A stretch of 64,000 nt of DNA from Bacteroidota bacterium. Lineage in GTDB: Bacteria > Bacteroidota > Ignavibacteria > Ignavibacteriales > Ignavibacteriaceae. The translations under genes and the position numbers were made by a program. Location of the stretch: the NCBI GenBank assembly GCA_021815405.1, contig JAKAGV010000004.1, forward strand, positions 227,363 to 291,362, read 5' to 3'. Below are positions 30,999 through 37,694 of the stretch, in pieces (the stretch's first letter is position 1; the number at the start of each line of letters is the position of its first letter). The notes under the pieces are model-generated. The model saw only the letters and a program-made list of their open reading frames with translations, ran no database searches and was not told the origin of the DNA.

Positions 30999-31035
30999 GG
31001 TAATTATAATTGGCAAATAATTTGGTAATTATAAA
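30999..31035 (+). promoter_or_regulatory. Direct repeat upstream of MerR-type gene, possible operator
   Basis: GGTAATTATAA occurs twice (30999-31009 and 31024-31034), 25 bp apart, just before the regulator start at 31050. The AATTATAATT within the first copy is itself palindromic. MerR proteins usually bind dyads between -35 and -10, so this could be an autoregulatory site. The spacing of about 2.5 helical turns places the copies on nearly opposite faces, which weakens the case. Confidence 0.3.
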
Positions 31036-31049
31036 TATCAACTTTTTAA

Positions 31050-31502
31050 ATGATTACTGAATTGAACGAAACTGAAAATATAAATTTACCATTATTCCCG
31101 ATAAGCAGTGCGGCTAAGATACTTGATATTTCCGTACATACTTTACGGATGTATGAAAAAGAAGGTCTGATTATTCCATTTAAAAAAGAATCAAGTCATA
31201 GGCTTTATTCTAAAGCGGATATCGATAGATTAATATGCATACGCAAAGCGATCAACGAAAGCAAGATTAGTATTGCCGGCATTAAATCAATTTATTCTCT
31301 TATACCATGCTGGGAAATTACAAAATGCACTAAGAATGATAGAGAAATTTGCGAAGCCTTCAATTCTCATACAAAACCATGCTGGACGTTCGAACATTCA
31401 AACAATCCCTGTGGAGAAAAAGATTGTCGTCTTTGTGACGTTTACAGTTTATATTCAGAATGCGGTAAGATTAAAGAGTTGATAACTAATTGTGTAAAAT
31501 AA
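31050..31502 (+). CDS. MerR-family regulator fused to Cys-rich two-CW-like domain
   Basis: A 150-residue protein. A MerR winged helix occupies about residues 15-80, with the landmark segments HTLRMYEKEGLIIPF and HRLYSKADIDRLICI. The C-terminal 65 residues contain nine of the ten cysteines: two Cys-Trp pairs (C87-W and C111-W) and C93, C101, C121, C126, C129, C138 and C148. This spacing fits the two-CW domain I know from small proteins near respiratory genes, here joined to a DNA-binding head. It probably senses metal, Fe-S or redox state. It starts the plus-strand cytochrome cluster and lies 28 bp before the seven-heme gene. Confidence 0.82.
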   Translation: MITELNETENINLPLFPISSAAKILDISVHTLRMYEKEGLIIPFKKESSHRLYSKADIDRLICIRKAINESKISIAGIKSIYSLIPCWEITKCTKNDREICEAFNSHTKPCWTFEHSNNPCGEKDCRLCDVYSLYSECGKIKELITNCVK

Positions 31503-31530
31503 TAGTTGAAAAAACTCTTTTTTCTTAAGT

Positions 31531-32460
31531 ATGAAATTTTTAATCACAGCGTTAAGCTTATTTATTTTAGTATCGGTCAAACCGGCAGCAAAACAAAATT
31601 CTCTCTCAACCAAGGATGAGAATCAAAATTGTCTTCGATGCCATTCAATGGCAACTCTTTCTTACCGGGATACAACGACCGGAATTATAAAAAGTTTGGC
31701 AGTATCTCCAAAAGAATTTTATAATTCAAATCATAAAGATCTTGCTTGCATCGATTGCCATTCAAAAGATTTCCAAACTTTTCCTCACAATGCAAAGTTG
31801 AAGAATGAAAATCTTTACTGCCTCAATTGTCATAAAGATGAACCAAAGTTTAAACAATTTCATTTCCAATCAATTGAAAAAGAATTTAAACAGAGTGTTC
31901 ACTATAAGAAACTTGGTAACAAATTTACCTGCTTCGATTGCCATGACCCGCATAGTTTTGAAATACATGCGAGGGTAAGTAAAGATATTAAGGAAACAGT
32001 TCTTTATGATAATATGATTTGCTTAAACTGTCATGAAAATAATTCTAAGATAAAATATTTGTCTGGCGTTATTCTTCCATCTCTGACTACTTCACACTCA
32101 TGGCTGCCGCATATGGATCTTCATTGGAAATCAGTCAGATGCATTGATTGTCATACTTCTCCAAATGCACCTGGTGTAAGCCATATAATTCTACCTAAAG
32201 ATAAAGCAGTAAAAAACTGCGTAGAATGTCATTCAAGGAATTCTTTGCTGCTTCAAACACTTTACAAGTTTGAATCGAAACAGTCGAGGAATAAAGAAGG
32301 CTTTTTAAATGCAGTTATTTTGAATAATTCATATGTCATCGGCGCTACAAGAAACTATTACCTCAATCTTTTAAGCTTTATAATTTTTGGTCTAACCCTG
32401 ATTGCTCTTTCAGTACATGGAATTTTAAGAACGATAGCAAAGAAAAGAAAATTGAAATGA
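31531..32460 (+). CDS. Seven-heme c-type cytochrome with C-terminal membrane anchor
   Basis: A 309-residue exported protein. The signal peptide covers residues 1-20. Seven CXXCH heme sites lie at C34, C73, C97, C134, C164, C204 and C230, and a single transmembrane helix lies at about 277-299, followed by a basic cytoplasmic tail. The pattern resembles the cytochrome c3/nitrate reductase small-subunit superfamily, but I cannot assign a named subfamily. Its stop overlaps the cytochrome b gene by 4 bp, so the two are translationally coupled. Its heme domain would face the periplasm. Confidence 0.88.
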   Translation: MKFLITALSLFILVSVKPAAKQNSLSTKDENQNCLRCHSMATLSYRDTTTGIIKSLAVSPKEFYNSNHKDLACIDCHSKDFQTFPHNAKLKNENLYCLNCHKDEPKFKQFHFQSIEKEFKQSVHYKKLGNKFTCFDCHDPHSFEIHARVSKDIKETVLYDNMICLNCHENNSKIKYLSGVILPSLTTSHSWLPHMDLHWKSVRCIDCHTSPNAPGVSHIILPKDKAVKNCVECHSRNSLLLQTLYKFESKQSRNKEGFLNAVILNNSYVIGATRNYYLNLLSFIIFGLTLIALSVHGILRTIAKKRKLK

Positions 32461-33143
32461 AGAATGAATCACTTTATTTGTATCCTGTCTGGCTCAGAAT
32501 TTGGCATTGGCTTAATGCACTGCTGTTTCTTTCATTAATTTTTACCGGACTTAATCTTCAATACGCCAAAATTAATTCACCGATAATTGATTTTCACACA
32601 GCAATTTTAATCCATAATATTTCAGGAATAACTCTTACTTTGAATTATTTGTTCTTCTTTATTCTGAACATAATATCCGGAAATTACAAACATTATCTTC
32701 CAAAGCTGAAAAACTTCGCAAAGAATATGCTTCTTCAGTTAAAATTTTATTTAAGTGGAATTTTTAAGAATGAAGAGCATCCTTTTGAAACCTCAGCAAA
32801 TCAAAAGTTCAATCCGCTTCAGCAAATTACTTATCTGAATATTATGTATGCGCTGTTCCCTCTTCTCCTGATTACCGGCTGGGCTTTGCTTTTTCCTGAA
32901 TTTATTTTAAACAAACTTTTCGAAACTTCGGGACTGCTACTTACCGCAGTCTTCCATACTACAATAGGATTTTTATTATCAATCTTTATGATTGGACATA
33001 TTTATTTAGCAACAACAGGAACTACCATCCTCAGCAATTTTAAATCCATGCTTACCGGATGGCACGTCCATGAAAATCATATAGTCAAATCTCAATTAAC
33101 TGAAATTACAATTCAGCAGGTGAAAAATGAAAATGAAAATTAA
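32457..33143 (+). CDS. Cytochrome b-type membrane subunit, formate dehydrogenase-gamma-like
   Basis: A 228-residue polytopic protein with four transmembrane segments (about 14-33, 49-74, 128-148, 160-186). Candidate heme b ligands are H17 (RIWHWLNA), H47, H53, H167 (FHTTIG) and H181 (GHIYLA), placed as in FdnI/thiosulfate-reductase cytochrome b (Ni/Fe hydrogenase-type b561). It should exchange electrons with the quinone pool and pass them to the neighbouring multiheme proteins. Its coding end overlaps the start of the eight-heme gene by 17 bp. Confidence 0.82.
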   Translation: MKNESLYLYPVWLRIWHWLNALLFLSLIFTGLNLQYAKINSPIIDFHTAILIHNISGITLTLNYLFFFILNIISGNYKHYLPKLKNFAKNMLLQLKFYLSGIFKNEEHPFETSANQKFNPLQQITYLNIMYALFPLLLITGWALLFPEFILNKLFETSGLLLTAVFHTTIGFLLSIFMIGHIYLATTGTTILSNFKSMLTGWHVHENHIVKSQLTEITIQQVKNENEN

Positions 33144-35292
33144 CTTAAAACCTTTCCTCAAAAAATGGTACGGGAAAATTACGGCAGTAATAGTCGGGCT
33201 TGCCTTAATTCTTTTTGTCGGAATGATGGCAATGCCATCGTTTTTTGAATGGTACACAGGAGTTAAAAACGCTCCTTTAACATATAACAGCAGCAAAAAA
33301 CTTACTGATGAACAATTCGAAGAAACTGCAAGGAAGATAACTTATAATGAACGTCTGGAAAAAGCGGAAGAGATAACAAAAGACGAAAAGAATGATTTCA
33401 CTCGAAGTGTCAAGATACAGATGCTGATGAATACGCCGTCATTCATGCGCGATACTAAATTCAAGCATATCGAATATTTCCGTAAGGCAGGAATCAAGCA
33501 GTACAAAGGACCAGAAACTTGTCTTGAATGTCATAAAACAATGAAGGTTCATGAAGCAGATGGTTCAATAAAAAAAGTTAACACACTAAGTGATGTCATT
33601 AATTCTGTTCATTTTGAATTCCAAAGAATGGCTCCAGGATTTTCAACTTACGGTTTCAACGGGAAGCAGGTAAATGCAAAAGGAAGACCCATACCAGTCG
33701 GGAAGATTGATAGAGCTTGCGGCATTCCGGGAAGCTTTTCATGGACCGGTTGGGCAGTTCTTGTTAAAACATACCCGAATGGAAAAGACAAGCCGGCTGT
33801 AATGAGAAGTGAAGGATGCGGGCAATGTCATATTGGCGGAAGCTATGATCCGGCAACAGAGAAAATGATGCCGGGCGGTGTAATTCCTGCAGAAACAAAA
33901 GAAGGAATTGACTGCTTAATTTGTCATTCTCAAAATTATGACATGAATTATAAGTACGTAATTAAAGACAAAGTTGGTTATCGATGGAACCAGGATAGGA
34001 CAATGGAAGCGGCAATGTCTGTAACTATTCCAACCAATAAGAATTGTCTTAACTGTCATCAGCATAATATGGGCGGAGATGTTTACCAATATAATGTTGC
34101 AGCAAAAAGTTTAGGATATAAGAACCAAAGAATTATTCATGGCGGTTCCAAACGAGGCAATCCATTTAGTTCGGAAGATGATGTGCATGCTGCAGCCGGA
34201 TTGCAGTGCCTCGATTGCCACGTTCCCGAAGGTCATAAAATTCCGAGAGGTGTTAAAGGAACAGATTTAGTCGCAAATGATTTGCCGAATAGAAAAGTTG
34301 ATTGCGAAAATTGCCATACATCGGCACCGCATACAAAAAATAAATTAGAAGATGTCATTCTTAACGGACATGTAAATAGAATTGCTTGCGAGACATGCCA
34401 TATTCCAAGTCTCCAAAGCAGCAGCGTGGTCTTGAGAGATTGGGTTCATCCTACATGGGATAAAGAAGATGGAATGTACGTCCCCACTGATATTTTACGT
34501 TCAGGCAAACCCGATGTTGGAATCACTTATCTTTGGTTTAATGGCAATGGAACTTTCTTAGCAAATGCAATGGGCAATAATCCAAATCATACGGATAAGT
34601 ACAATCCATTAATGAATCAATTGGTGACTTTGAATGATCCGGAAGCTTTGAAAGAAGTAAAGCAAAATATTATGAGCGATTTCGGAATGACTTCACAGCA
34701 AGCTGATAATTACATGAAAACTTTCACAAATACTCTTTCACAATTAAGCCCAAAAATGATTGAAAAGAGAAAGGAAGTAATTAAAACCTTTATTGTAAAA
34801 CTCGAGAACATGGGACAAAGTAAAATTTATCCGTTCAAGCTTTTTAATGCTTACATGTATGAAGATATGTCGAATCAAGGACCTTTCGGCGCAATGATTT
34901 TACCGTTTGACTATCCGACATATTATGAAACCGGTAATTCACTTGCGTCAATGAAGAAGGCTATTGAAAATCCAATAGTTAAAAGAATGTACCAGTTCCC
35001 ATTCAAAGAATATATGATGGATGATTTTATGCATTACTTTGGTGTAAGCACTTGGTCTGATGTTTACCCGATTGATAGTAAGGGAAATCTTAGAAATATT
35101 GAACCACACTGGATGCGGCAATATGGTACTTTAATGATCAACCACGGAATAAAGAAGGACGGATTAAGCTGCGAGAACTGTCATTCACCTAATGGAATAC
35201 TGGATTTTGCAAAACTCGGTTACTCGCCCCAAAGAGTAAAAGACTTAACACATCTAAAAGATTTAAAGTATTTTACATCGAATAAGAAGTAG
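33127..35292 (+). CDS. Eight-heme c-type cytochrome, octaheme tetrathionate reductase-like
   Basis: A 721-residue protein. One N-terminal hydrophobic helix (about 17-37, uncleaved anchor or signal) precedes eight CXXCH sites at C132, C231, C263, C307, C361, C393, C421 and C682. The GIDCLICHSQNYD segment and the order of heme sites, including a final one far from the rest, resemble the octaheme tetrathionate reductase (OTR) family. It is longer than the Shewanella enzyme, with a C-terminal part of about 300 residues holding only one heme. Substrate unproven: tetrathionate, nitrite, hydroxylamine or metals are candidates. It is coupled to the cytochrome b gene. Confidence 0.82.
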   Translation: MKMKINLKPFLKKWYGKITAVIVGLALILFVGMMAMPSFFEWYTGVKNAPLTYNSSKKLTDEQFEETARKITYNERLEKAEEITKDEKNDFTRSVKIQMLMNTPSFMRDTKFKHIEYFRKAGIKQYKGPETCLECHKTMKVHEADGSIKKVNTLSDVINSVHFEFQRMAPGFSTYGFNGKQVNAKGRPIPVGKIDRACGIPGSFSWTGWAVLVKTYPNGKDKPAVMRSEGCGQCHIGGSYDPATEKMMPGGVIPAETKEGIDCLICHSQNYDMNYKYVIKDKVGYRWNQDRTMEAAMSVTIPTNKNCLNCHQHNMGGDVYQYNVAAKSLGYKNQRIIHGGSKRGNPFSSEDDVHAAAGLQCLDCHVPEGHKIPRGVKGTDLVANDLPNRKVDCENCHTSAPHTKNKLEDVILNGHVNRIACETCHIPSLQSSSVVLRDWVHPTWDKEDGMYVPTDILRSGKPDVGITYLWFNGNGTFLANAMGNNPNHTDKYNPLMNQLVTLNDPEALKEVKQNIMSDFGMTSQQADNYMKTFTNTLSQLSPKMIEKRKEVIKTFIVKLENMGQSKIYPFKLFNAYMYEDMSNQGPFGAMILPFDYPTYYETGNSLASMKKAIENPIVKRMYQFPFKEYMMDDFMHYFGVSTWSDVYPIDSKGNLRNIEPHWMRQYGTLMINHGIKKDGLSCENCHSPNGILDFAKLGYSPQRVKDLTHLKDLKYFTSNKK

Positions 35293-35346: not shown

Positions 35347-36369
35347 TCAATAACTTTCTTTCCCTAATACTACTTTCCCCTTAAACACGCGGTAAATAAA
35401 AATTGTATAAATTATTACTAACGGCATTCCTATAAGAGCGATTATAAGCATTGTTAAAAGCGTTCGATCTGATGAAGATGAATTATAAATCGTAAGACTG
35501 AAATTCAAATCAATGTTTGAAGGAACAAGTCTTGGAAATAAACTTAACGCCGCAAGACCTATCACTGATGCAATAGTTATTGCTGATGAAAGGAATGTGA
35601 CAAAATATTTATTTGCCTTTAATGCAACCGGCTGATATAGAACCGATGCAAGTAAAAGAATAAACAATATCCAGAACAATGGACTTGACATTATTCCATC
35701 AAACAAATATCCGGCTTCAAACATTGTCAGAAATGTTGCGATAACATAGAGAACAACAAATAGTATCCAGAACTTATTGCTTAATTTTTCAAATCTTTCT
35801 CTCAGCACTCCTTCGGATTTATTTGTCATATAGTTAGCACCATGCATTATGAATAAAGCAAGGCTGAGCACTCCAATTAAGATAGAATAAGGATTTAATA
35901 GTTCAATGAATGAACCAACAAAATTTCCATTCGCATCGACTGGAATTCCTCTCAAGATATTTCCGAATGCAACTCCGAATAGAATTGCAGGCAGAAGACT
36001 TCCAATTCCAAAAGCAGCATCCCAAAATTTTCTCCAAGTCGCCGACTCAACCTTTCCTCGAAATTCAAAAGAAACTGCTCTAAAAATTAAAGCAGCAAGT
36101 AAAAGAATAAGAGCAATATAAAATCCACTGAATACGGTAGCATAGACAGGTGGAAAAGCAGCAAATAATGCACCTCCTCCAGTTAGAAGCCAAACTTCAT
36201 TTCCGTCCCACACCGGTCCAATTGCGTTCATCATTATTCTTTTATCGTCTTCATTCTTTGTAAAAAGATGAATAACACCAACACCGAAATCGAAGCCGTC
36301 AAGAATTGCATATCCAATAATTAAAACTCCGACTAACAAAAACCAAACTGTGTTCAAATCCATTTTCAA
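35347..36369 (-). CDS. cydB: Cytochrome bd oxidase subunit II
   Basis: A 340-residue integral membrane protein with about eight to nine helices. It begins with the CydB-type N-terminus (WFLLVGVLIIGYAILDGFDFG) and continues with GPVWDGNEVWLLTGGGALFAAFP, a conserved CydB element. It forms the terminal bd-type quinol oxidase with CydA. Its start overlaps cydA by 4 bp. I see no CydX-like small gene after it, and the bidirectional terminator follows directly. It would allow respiration at low oxygen. Confidence 0.96.
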   Translation of the reverse strand: MKMDLNTVWFLLVGVLIIGYAILDGFDFGVGVIHLFTKNEDDKRIMMNAIGPVWDGNEVWLLTGGGALFAAFPPVYATVFSGFYIALILLLAALIFRAVSFEFRGKVESATWRKFWDAAFGIGSLLPAILFGVAFGNILRGIPVDANGNFVGSFIELLNPYSILIGVLSLALFIMHGANYMTNKSEGVLRERFEKLSNKFWILFVVLYVIATFLTMFEAGYLFDGIMSSPLFWILFILLLASVLYQPVALKANKYFVTFLSSAITIASVIGLAALSLFPRLVPSNIDLNFSLTIYNSSSSDRTLLTMLIIALIGMPLVIIYTIFIYRVFKGKVVLGKESY

Positions 36370-37694
36370 TTTACCTCCTTTACTTCAGGTTCGGGTCCAT
36401 GCTTTATTTCTTTCACCAAAAGATAGATATATAATATACCAATCAATGCATAGATTAAGAAGAAAACAATAATTGAAAATAAAACATCGCCAGGAACTAG
36501 AGATGTTGAAACCGCATCTTGAGTCCTCATAACATGATAAACTATCCAAGGCTGTCTTCCCACTTCTGCGGAAATCCATCCAAGCTCACAAGCCAGAACC
36601 GGAAATGGAATAGCCCAAATAAAAACTCTGAGAAGTTTTTTACTATCCCACAATTTTTTTCGATAAAGCTGAATCGTACCTAACGCAGTTAAAAGGATAA
36701 ACAGCATTCCAAGTGCAACCATATTATGGTAAGAAACGAAAGTAATAAATAAAGGCGGAAGGTCGTTTGATGGAAATTCATTTATTCCTTGCACACGTGC
36801 ATTAGCATCACCAAATGCAAGATAACTTAGCAAATTTGGAATTTCAATTTTCGCTTTGAGTTCAGGCGGCGGCATAACCGGAACAGCAAAAACAGCCATT
36901 GGTGCGCCAGTCTGTGAAGTATAAAGACCTTGAATTGCAGCAAACTTTTCAGGTTGTAAATGAGCTACTTCCCTTCCGCTTTCATGTCCAAAAGGAAAAA
37001 GCTCTAATAGAGAAACTACCAATCCAAAAATTACTGCAATCCTCATTGATTTCTTTGCGAGCTCTGCATGTTTTTCTTTTAAAATTAAATATGCAGAAAC
37101 TCCAGCCATCATAAATGAGCCGGTAATCAAAGCTGCGTCAAATGTGTGCAAAAATCTGATAATAGTAGAAGGATTAAATACAGCCTCCCAAAAATCAGTT
37201 AGAACTGCCCTTCCATTCTGAATAACATAACCTGCGGGTGTTTGCATCCAGGAGCCTGCAACAATAATCCAGAACGCCGAAATAGTCGCTCCAACTGCTA
37301 CCATTAATATTGAAAACCAGTGAATGCCTTTTGACACTCTCTTTCTTCCAAAGATATAGAGACCAAGAAAACCAGATTCAAGGAAAAATGCGAACACACC
37401 TTCCGCAGCCAGAGGTGCACCAAAAATATCACCAACAAATTTTGAATACTGAGCCCAGTTGGTTCCAAATTGAAATTCCATAACAATTCCGGAAGCAACT
37501 CCAACGGCAAAAGTTAAAGCAAGAATCTTTGAAAAGAATTTTCCAATTCTCTCATACACTTCATCTTTCCGTTTCCATCCAAGTGTTTCTACAATAACAA
37601 GCATCCATGCTAAGCCAATTGATATTGGAGGAAAGACAAAGTGGAACATTATTGTCATAGCAAATTGAAGCCTAGACAGTAAGACAACATCCAT
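36366..37694 (-). CDS. cydA: Cytochrome bd oxidase subunit I
   Basis: A 442-residue subunit with nine or so helices. The heme-bearing N-terminus has H18 in IMFHFVFPPISIG, then EGVFAFFLESGFLGLYIFG and the quinol-loop segment GHESGREVAHLQPEKFAAIQGLY. Its length fits the short Q-loop class of CydA. It lies 44 bp downstream of a STAS-domain gene and is coupled to cydB. The enzyme is expected to be microaerobic or protective against oxygen. Confidence 0.95.
   Translation of the reverse strand: MDVVLLSRLQFAMTIMFHFVFPPISIGLAWMLVIVETLGWKRKDEVYERIGKFFSKILALTFAVGVASGIVMEFQFGTNWAQYSKFVGDIFGAPLAAEGVFAFFLESGFLGLYIFGRKRVSKGIHWFSILMVAVGATISAFWIIVAGSWMQTPAGYVIQNGRAVLTDFWEAVFNPSTIIRFLHTFDAALITGSFMMAGVSAYLILKEKHAELAKKSMRIAVIFGLVVSLLELFPFGHESGREVAHLQPEKFAAIQGLYTSQTGAPMAVFAVPVMPPPELKAKIEIPNLLSYLAFGDANARVQGINEFPSNDLPPLFITFVSYHNMVALGMLFILLTALGTIQLYRKKLWDSKKLLRVFIWAIPFPVLACELGWISAEVGRQPWIVYHVMRTQDAVSTSLVPGDVLFSIIVFFLIYALIGILYIYLLVKEIKHGPEPEVKEVN

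Follow-up and report, generated by a model that had tools for sequence, protein, structure and literature searches.

Four plus-strand genes at positions 31050–35292 of a 64,000-nucleotide stretch from an Ignavibacteriaceae genome (contig JAKAGV010000004.1 of GCA_021815405.1; the whole stretch is called the window) encode a MerR-type regulator, a 7-heme c-type cytochrome, a cytochrome b subunit and an 8-heme c-type cytochrome. The last three genes, referred to here as the trio, are a real and widespread single module. The balance of probability tilts slightly towards a trio that takes electrons from quinol and, with heme alone, works as the terminal reductase of a sulfur compound (probably a tetrathionate-like one), replacing the molybdenum-containing PhsA-type reductase in the same regulon. 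This assignment draws on gene order, heme counts, an OTR fold in the predicted model, the regulator family, the element upstream of it and the lack of any genome with both enzyme types among 13 members of the genus. Substrate and direction of electron flow are presumptive, the sulfur role resting on the regulon and the exclusion evidence.

Organization of the locus

The four genes lie between minus-strand open reading frames (ORFs), with a 467-aa ORF before them and cydB-/cydA-type ORFs after them. The ORF coordinates bear out the placement given in an earlier note on this DNA, as well as its overlaps of 4 bp and 17 bp among the last three genes; the gap between the regulator gene and the 7-heme gene is 28 bp. 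The heme counts and anchors that it read from the sequence also hold: seven CXXCH motifs and a C-terminal hydrophobic stretch (residues 280–298) in the one cytochrome, eight CXXCH motifs and an N-terminal stretch (residues 18–36) in the other. The features are as follows.

31011..31041, plus strand: promoter/operator, TGGCA-N6-TTG plus palindrome, consensus TTGATATTTATAAATATCAA, 2 mismatches; ends 8 nt before the regulator ATG
31050..31502, plus strand: MerR-type regulator (150 aa) with a C-terminal Cys-rich (two-CW-like) domain, from profile matches and kin loci
31308..31463, plus strand: Cys-rich domain, predicted sensor; C87, C93, C101, C111, C121, C126, C129 and C138 are all invariant in 13/13 aligned rows
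31531..32460, plus strand: 7-heme c-type cytochrome (309 aa) with a signal-like N-terminus and a C-terminal membrane anchor; heme motifs aligned in 27 rows
32457..33143, plus strand: cytochrome b561-type membrane subunit (228 aa) with a predicted di-heme quinol site
33127..35292, plus strand: 8-heme c-type cytochrome (721 aa) with an OTR fold and an N-terminal anchor, predicted terminal reductase
34138..34140, plus strand: H338 codon (checked), candidate heme-2 ligand or active-site residue

The third protein had been called a cytochrome b subunit, and it exceeds the cut-off of PF01292 (cytochrome b561). It also comes near the thiosulfate reductase cytochrome B subunit model (PRK15006, 180 bits; cut-off 204). 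Four of its histidines (H17, H53, H167 and H181), presumably the ligands of two b hemes, are invariant in 56/56 rows. The predicted model of the 7-heme protein is weak (pTM 0.48).

Conservation of the trio

A protein search yielded 822 homologs of the 8-heme protein, the best 120 of which were listed. Scanning species genomes gave 381 confirmed stretches, and the best 80 of these serve as trio loci. These 80 span Bacteroidetes/Ignavibacteria, Calditrichota, Chlorobiota, Poribacteria, Latescibacterota, Armatimonadetes, Chromatiaceae (e.g. Chromatium okenii DSM 169, L073), Thiomargarita, Magnetococcales and others. The joint synteny search that the earlier note proposed finds the genes together, in the order 7-heme, cytochrome b, 8-heme, at 74 of the 80 loci, so the outcome that would have spoken against it, homologs that are never adjacent, did not occur. 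Six of the intact loci (L039, L055, L058, L063, L068 and L075), in which the 8-heme profile match is split, were scored by hand. The seven and eight heme motifs are nearly constant across loci. As exceptions, cytochrome b is missing in L017, L021 and L033, the 8-heme gene stands alone in L023 and L040, and L036 lies at a contig end.

Neighbour clustering over the 80 loci gives no further gene common to more than 11 of them, and thus no outer-membrane partner is conserved beside the trio. The regulator is intact in five loci (L012–L015 and L020, the last from Calditrichota) and decayed in L016. The proposal of a self-contained module with its own sensor therefore stands for the electron-transfer part and not for the sensor. 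At ~5800–6400 of L016 the regulator reading frame is lost and the trio behind it is intact, so the trio can outlive its regulator. In the literature searches made, neither the 7-heme/b/8-heme trio nor the regulator family turned up as a described system.

Some loci show variations of their own. The 7-heme gene lies directly beside the 8-heme gene in L017, L021 and L033; in L021, iron-sulfur and NrfD genes lie upstream and might serve as the quinone partner instead, and L017 carries a second, shorter 8-heme ORF downstream. The minus-strand cydB-/cydA-type bd oxidase genes of the window (35347–37694) converge on the trio, and similar ORFs follow the trio in L013.

The 8-heme protein as a separate group

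The predicted model of the 8-heme protein has the OTR fold and matches structure 1sp3; the rest of the structure search list consists mostly of short helical matches, chiefly to residues 58–123. The CXXCH hemes follow the OTR order in 35/35 rows of the group and 13/13 OTR rows. The protein scores 86.8 bits on the curated OTR model (TIGR04315, cut-off 375 bits), and the group as a whole reaches 72–80 bits in the phylum and genus samples, vs 525–659 bits for OTRs of the phylum above the cut-off. The distal lysine on heme 2, which we take to be Lys153, is kept in 30/30 OTRs, and its position is variable in the 8-heme group. H338 is invariant in 35/35 group rows and falls in a gap in 13/13 OTR rows. 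In the tree, the 13 OTR rows split off with full support (100/100) on a branch of 5.7, and 30 rows of the 8-heme group fall together (90/91).

By its sequence and predicted model, the 8-heme protein forms a separate group on the OTR scaffold and is no orphan. Membership in OTR was rejected on score, the missing lysine and the tree. Identity with NrfA was likewise rejected: PF02335 stays below its cut-off, and the catalytic CXXCK motif is absent from the protein and from all 35 aligned rows. One octaheme of 496 aa (L010, G051:C1:187876-189207) appears intermediate between OTR and the 8-heme group, having neither the OTR lysine nor H338; its long branch makes its placement unsure.

The regulator family and its targets

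The MerR domain of the regulator is clear (PF13411, 53.3 bits vs a cut-off of 21.6). The earlier description of a MerR head with a two-CW domain keeps its first half. Its second half is reduced to a weak resemblance, as the Cys-rich tail scores 8 bits (E 3.7) against the curated 35 bits of NF045718, and a plain two-CW protein was rejected at that cut-off.

A profile made from 13 such proteins matched 115/294 genomes of the class and 12/13 of the genus, giving 153 distinct regulator places (144 and 9, respectively). Taking as target any gene on the same strand within 500 bp downstream, a sulfur-type module follows at 105/153 places (PhsA-type 43, OTR 34, SQR 21, 7-heme 7); OTR- and trio-adjacent regulators fed the profile, so these two classes are favoured in the counts, and the PhsA and SQR classes were not used. 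The remaining places have another gene (31), none (13) or a contig end (4). Of the 102 best-scoring places, 85 have a module, a tight link. Among 30 other MerR genes of the class taken as a control, none has any such module within 1.5 kb; at one of these loci (L249) a truncated relative of the regulator occurs. Two 7-heme neighbours stand apart: that of L352 (5 CXXCH, 58.9 bits) is weak and probably another multiheme protein, and that of L371 follows the decayed L016 regulator.

Seven of the 30 listed OTR loci have a MerR gene of the window's kind ahead of OTR, and in G056 one stands before a PhsA-type gene at 2.07 Mb. The one PhsA-type operon checked in full also contains iron-sulfur, NrfD, two sulfur-transport and rhodanese genes, and one regulator-linked SQR exceeds its curated cut-off (666 vs 525 bits). 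Exclusivity of the regulator to the trio was rejected, its kin preceding OTR, PhsA-type and SQR genes more often. These targets make sulfur compounds the candidate class of acceptor, which the earlier note had given as unknown.

Other arrangements in the family include a Cys-rich MerR gene before a DsrE2-like sulfur-relay gene, with the promoter element each time, in genus g203 (L328, L333, L334, L336 and L344); these five, two of them checked, are counted among the "other gene" places. Three Cys-rich MerR copies occur within 14 kb in L181 (G595:C16), preceding respectively an SQR-type gene, a 207-aa gene with a PhsA-type gene behind it, and a second PhsA-type operon. At the PhsA-type loci L162, L163 and L166, a fused cytochrome b + 11-CXXCH protein (~900 aa), an unusual quinol-oxidising unit, is encoded upstream of the regulator, and related loci contain a Rieske gene.

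The upstream element

The motif TGGCA-N6-TTG, which resembles a sigma-54 -24/-12 promoter, lies upstream of the regulator and runs into the palindrome in 66 of 101 best-scoring places, vs 0.14% of shuffles. By target class in these 101, it is found before 7-heme (5/5), PhsA-type (28/33), SQR (13/15) and OTR (13/32) modules. In the window, 31011–31041 is the sole site, with none in 100 shuffles, and it is also the one site at ≤3 mismatches in the 5-Mb genome.

At the same tolerance, the full 31-base pattern occurs in 12/13 genus genomes, and its reversed control in none. Each of the five trio genomes has one site, before regulator and trio. In PhsA genomes, two to five sites are listed, some being one palindrome read on both strands. 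There a site precedes phsA also in genomes whose regulator lies at another locus (G005, G006, G009 and G011). Further sites precede a CMD gene accompanied by MoaA or fall between Rieske and ModA-like genes; a family search at one locus each supplied the names MoaA, ModA, Mop and Rieske/cytochrome b. Molybdenum supply thus seems to come under the regulon only in genomes that use a molybdoenzyme.

Exchange with the PhsA-type enzyme within the genus

The trio 8-heme gene is present in five of the 13 genus genomes (G000, G003, G007, G008 and G012) and the PhsA-type enzyme in six (G001, G004, G005, G006, G009 and G011). No genome has both (Fisher p 0.021, post hoc and ignoring kinship), which suggests that the two stand in for each other. 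OTR occurs in G002 and also in G008, which has the trio as well; counted together, octaheme types (6) and PhsA types (6) again never coincide (p 0.0047, with the same limits). The window's genome has no PhsA-type match at E 1e-60, and the trio itself includes no molybdopterin catalytic subunit. MoaA is found in all six PhsA genomes and in the trio genome G012 and in no other of the 13 (p 0.0047 vs PhsA); four of the five trio genomes are without it.

In G006, G009 and G011, which lack the trio, a lone regulator occupies the same place, next to an lpd-like gene (identified by eye). This suggests gain or loss of the trio beside a resident regulator. The lone regulator beside the lpd-like gene retains its operator in L126, L130 and L155, also from genomes without the trio.

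Proposed mechanism and alternative explanations

In the proposed mechanism, the Cys-rich regulator would respond to a reactive sulfur species, or to a related signal that reacts with thiols, and would activate its own operon via the palindrome at 31011–31041. Cytochrome b would then oxidise quinol at the inner membrane. The tail-anchored 7-heme protein would receive the electrons and feed the 8-heme protein, anchored by its N-terminus, whose heme 2 would be the catalytic heme at which the sulfur compound is reduced. Tetrathionate is the preferred candidate, being a substrate of an OTR-type octaheme: this enzyme reduces tetrathionate in vitro at 93 umol per min per mg, as well as nitrite, and its gene, at 1748 bp, is too short for the 8-heme group (PMC6449678). 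The altered surroundings of heme 2 leave polysulfide, thiosulfate or sulfite open as substrates. Octahemes have been proposed as possible replacements for molybdoenzymes in Dethiobacter thiosulfate reduction (PMC10376724). A gene pair of Ignavibacteriae Ch128a, reported as Otr and cytochrome b561, may be of the OTR type (PMC7509429). The full proposal goes further: an undescribed all-heme, molybdenum-free quinol:sulfur-compound reductase, with His in place of the OTR catalytic-heme Lys, swapped for a molybdoenzyme in an intact regulon under a new Cys-rich MerR sensor family that governs molybdenum-type, OTR-type and trio sulfur respiration. As a whole, it falls somewhat short of an even chance.

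Several points weigh against a sulfur reductase. Sulfur-transport genes accompany 0/80 trio loci, vs 19/19 OTR and 14/14 PhsA operons. With the OTR distal Lys absent, heme 2 may have two His ligands and no catalytic role. The link between regulator and module is loose in the 51 lowest-scoring places (20 with a module), and the promoter element is present in 9 of them. The three PhsA-type proteins tested score 526–540 bits vs a PhsA cut-off of 694, so "PhsA" names a type only. Within the genus, MoaA is not significantly associated with the trio alone (p 0.10), G008 has both trio and OTR, G012 has three MoaA genes with its trio, and the exclusion statistics come from genomes 79–99.98% complete. 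Published work adds to these points through the oxidative and arsenate alternatives below.

An oxidative or wire-like module, taking electrons from sulfide, sulfur or minerals through an all-bis-His 8-heme protein to quinone or out of the cell, is unlikely but deserves most attention among the alternatives. The extra invariant H338 could be the eighth distal ligand, SQR falls under the same regulator family, and kin are common in sulfur-oxidising Chromatiaceae and Thiomargarita. A b561/octaheme pair is reported to rise on sulfide in purple sulfur bacteria (PMC6374484), and cytochromes of Allochromatium vinosum with 7 or 8 hemes are reported to be enhanced on pyrite (PMC11267869); these are probably trio kin and could mean an oxidative direction. 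However, other enzymes of the regulon that pair with a quinone partner, namely PhsA-type/NrfD and OTR/cytochrome b, belong to reductase types, an outer-membrane partner is not conserved, and NiFe-hydrogenase subunit clusters near 8/80 trio loci (Pfam check on L020 only) fit quinol supply.

A nitrite or hydroxylamine reductase, ammonia-forming or detoxifying and fed by the 7-heme protein and cytochrome b, has a still smaller chance. The nitrite activity of the OTR-type enzyme favours it, as do several listed 8-heme homologs that sources label nitrite reductase and the lack of a clear NrfA in the 13 genus genomes (eight have partial PF02335 matches over the cut-off, ≤37 bits singly; the window's genome is below it). 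But these labels look automatic, the aligned rows lack CXXCK, and the regulator's other targets are sulfur-type modules. The PhsA-bearing sister genomes are also without clear NrfA, so the swap does not track nitrite reduction.

Least probable is a regulon that answers arsenate/arsenite or general thiol stress, with a trio that reduces arsenate or detoxifies: the regulator family also has OTR, SQR, DsrE2-like, rhodanese and sulfur-transport genes under it, which points to sulfur, and we know of no heme-only arsenate reductase. Its support comes from Melioribacter roseus, where the psr/phsA gene MROS_1774, which follows the MerR gene MROS_1773, is reported to be arsenate-induced and proposed as an arsenate reductase, and S0, thiosulfate and sulfite neither stimulated nor supported growth (PMC5492636, PMC3534657).

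If the trio is a sulfur-compound reductase, a heme-only enzyme of this kind goes unassigned in genomes of Ignavibacteria, Calditrichota, Magnetococcales and purple sulfur bacteria. Sulfur-compound respiration is usually assigned via molybdoenzymes, and the 8-heme homologs, where named among the matches listed, are mostly "nitrite reductase" or "hypothetical protein". A single operator motif would mark the modules that a genome uses for the same signal. The heme-for-molybdenum exchange is directly testable in a genus having both versions, and the heme-2 ligand change leads to a specific prediction on octaheme catalysis.

Comparison with known systems

The M. roseus psr/phs operon (MROS_1773-1776) resembles the locus in its leading MerR gene, which there precedes a PhsA-type operon. 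Unlike the trio, it encodes a molybdenum enzyme, tied to arsenate by its authors, whose account, as far as available, does not describe a Cys-rich domain or operator. PhsABC/PsrABC systems share with the trio a regulator and operator family within the class and a cytochrome b that scores close to the thiosulfate reductase model; unlike them, the trio has no molybdenum or iron-sulfur subunit.

With NrfHA/NrfABCD, the trio shares the logic of quinol to multiheme protein to multiheme enzyme, and the 8-heme protein shows a short similarity around heme 5 (6v0a, 1.7e-5, 54 positions). The trio differs in having an eight-heme protein without CXXCK, no NrfH or NrfD, and a PF02335 score below the cut-off. 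OTR (TIGR04315, 1sp3) differs in having the distal Lys; the 8-heme protein is ~200 residues longer than the aligned OTRs, with an N-terminal anchor, the H338 insert and a dedicated 7-heme partner. The two have in common the fold, eight ordered CXXCH motifs, seven further conserved His, and the YPFK and heme-8 regions, and OTR genes often adjoin cytochrome b, as the 8-heme gene does.

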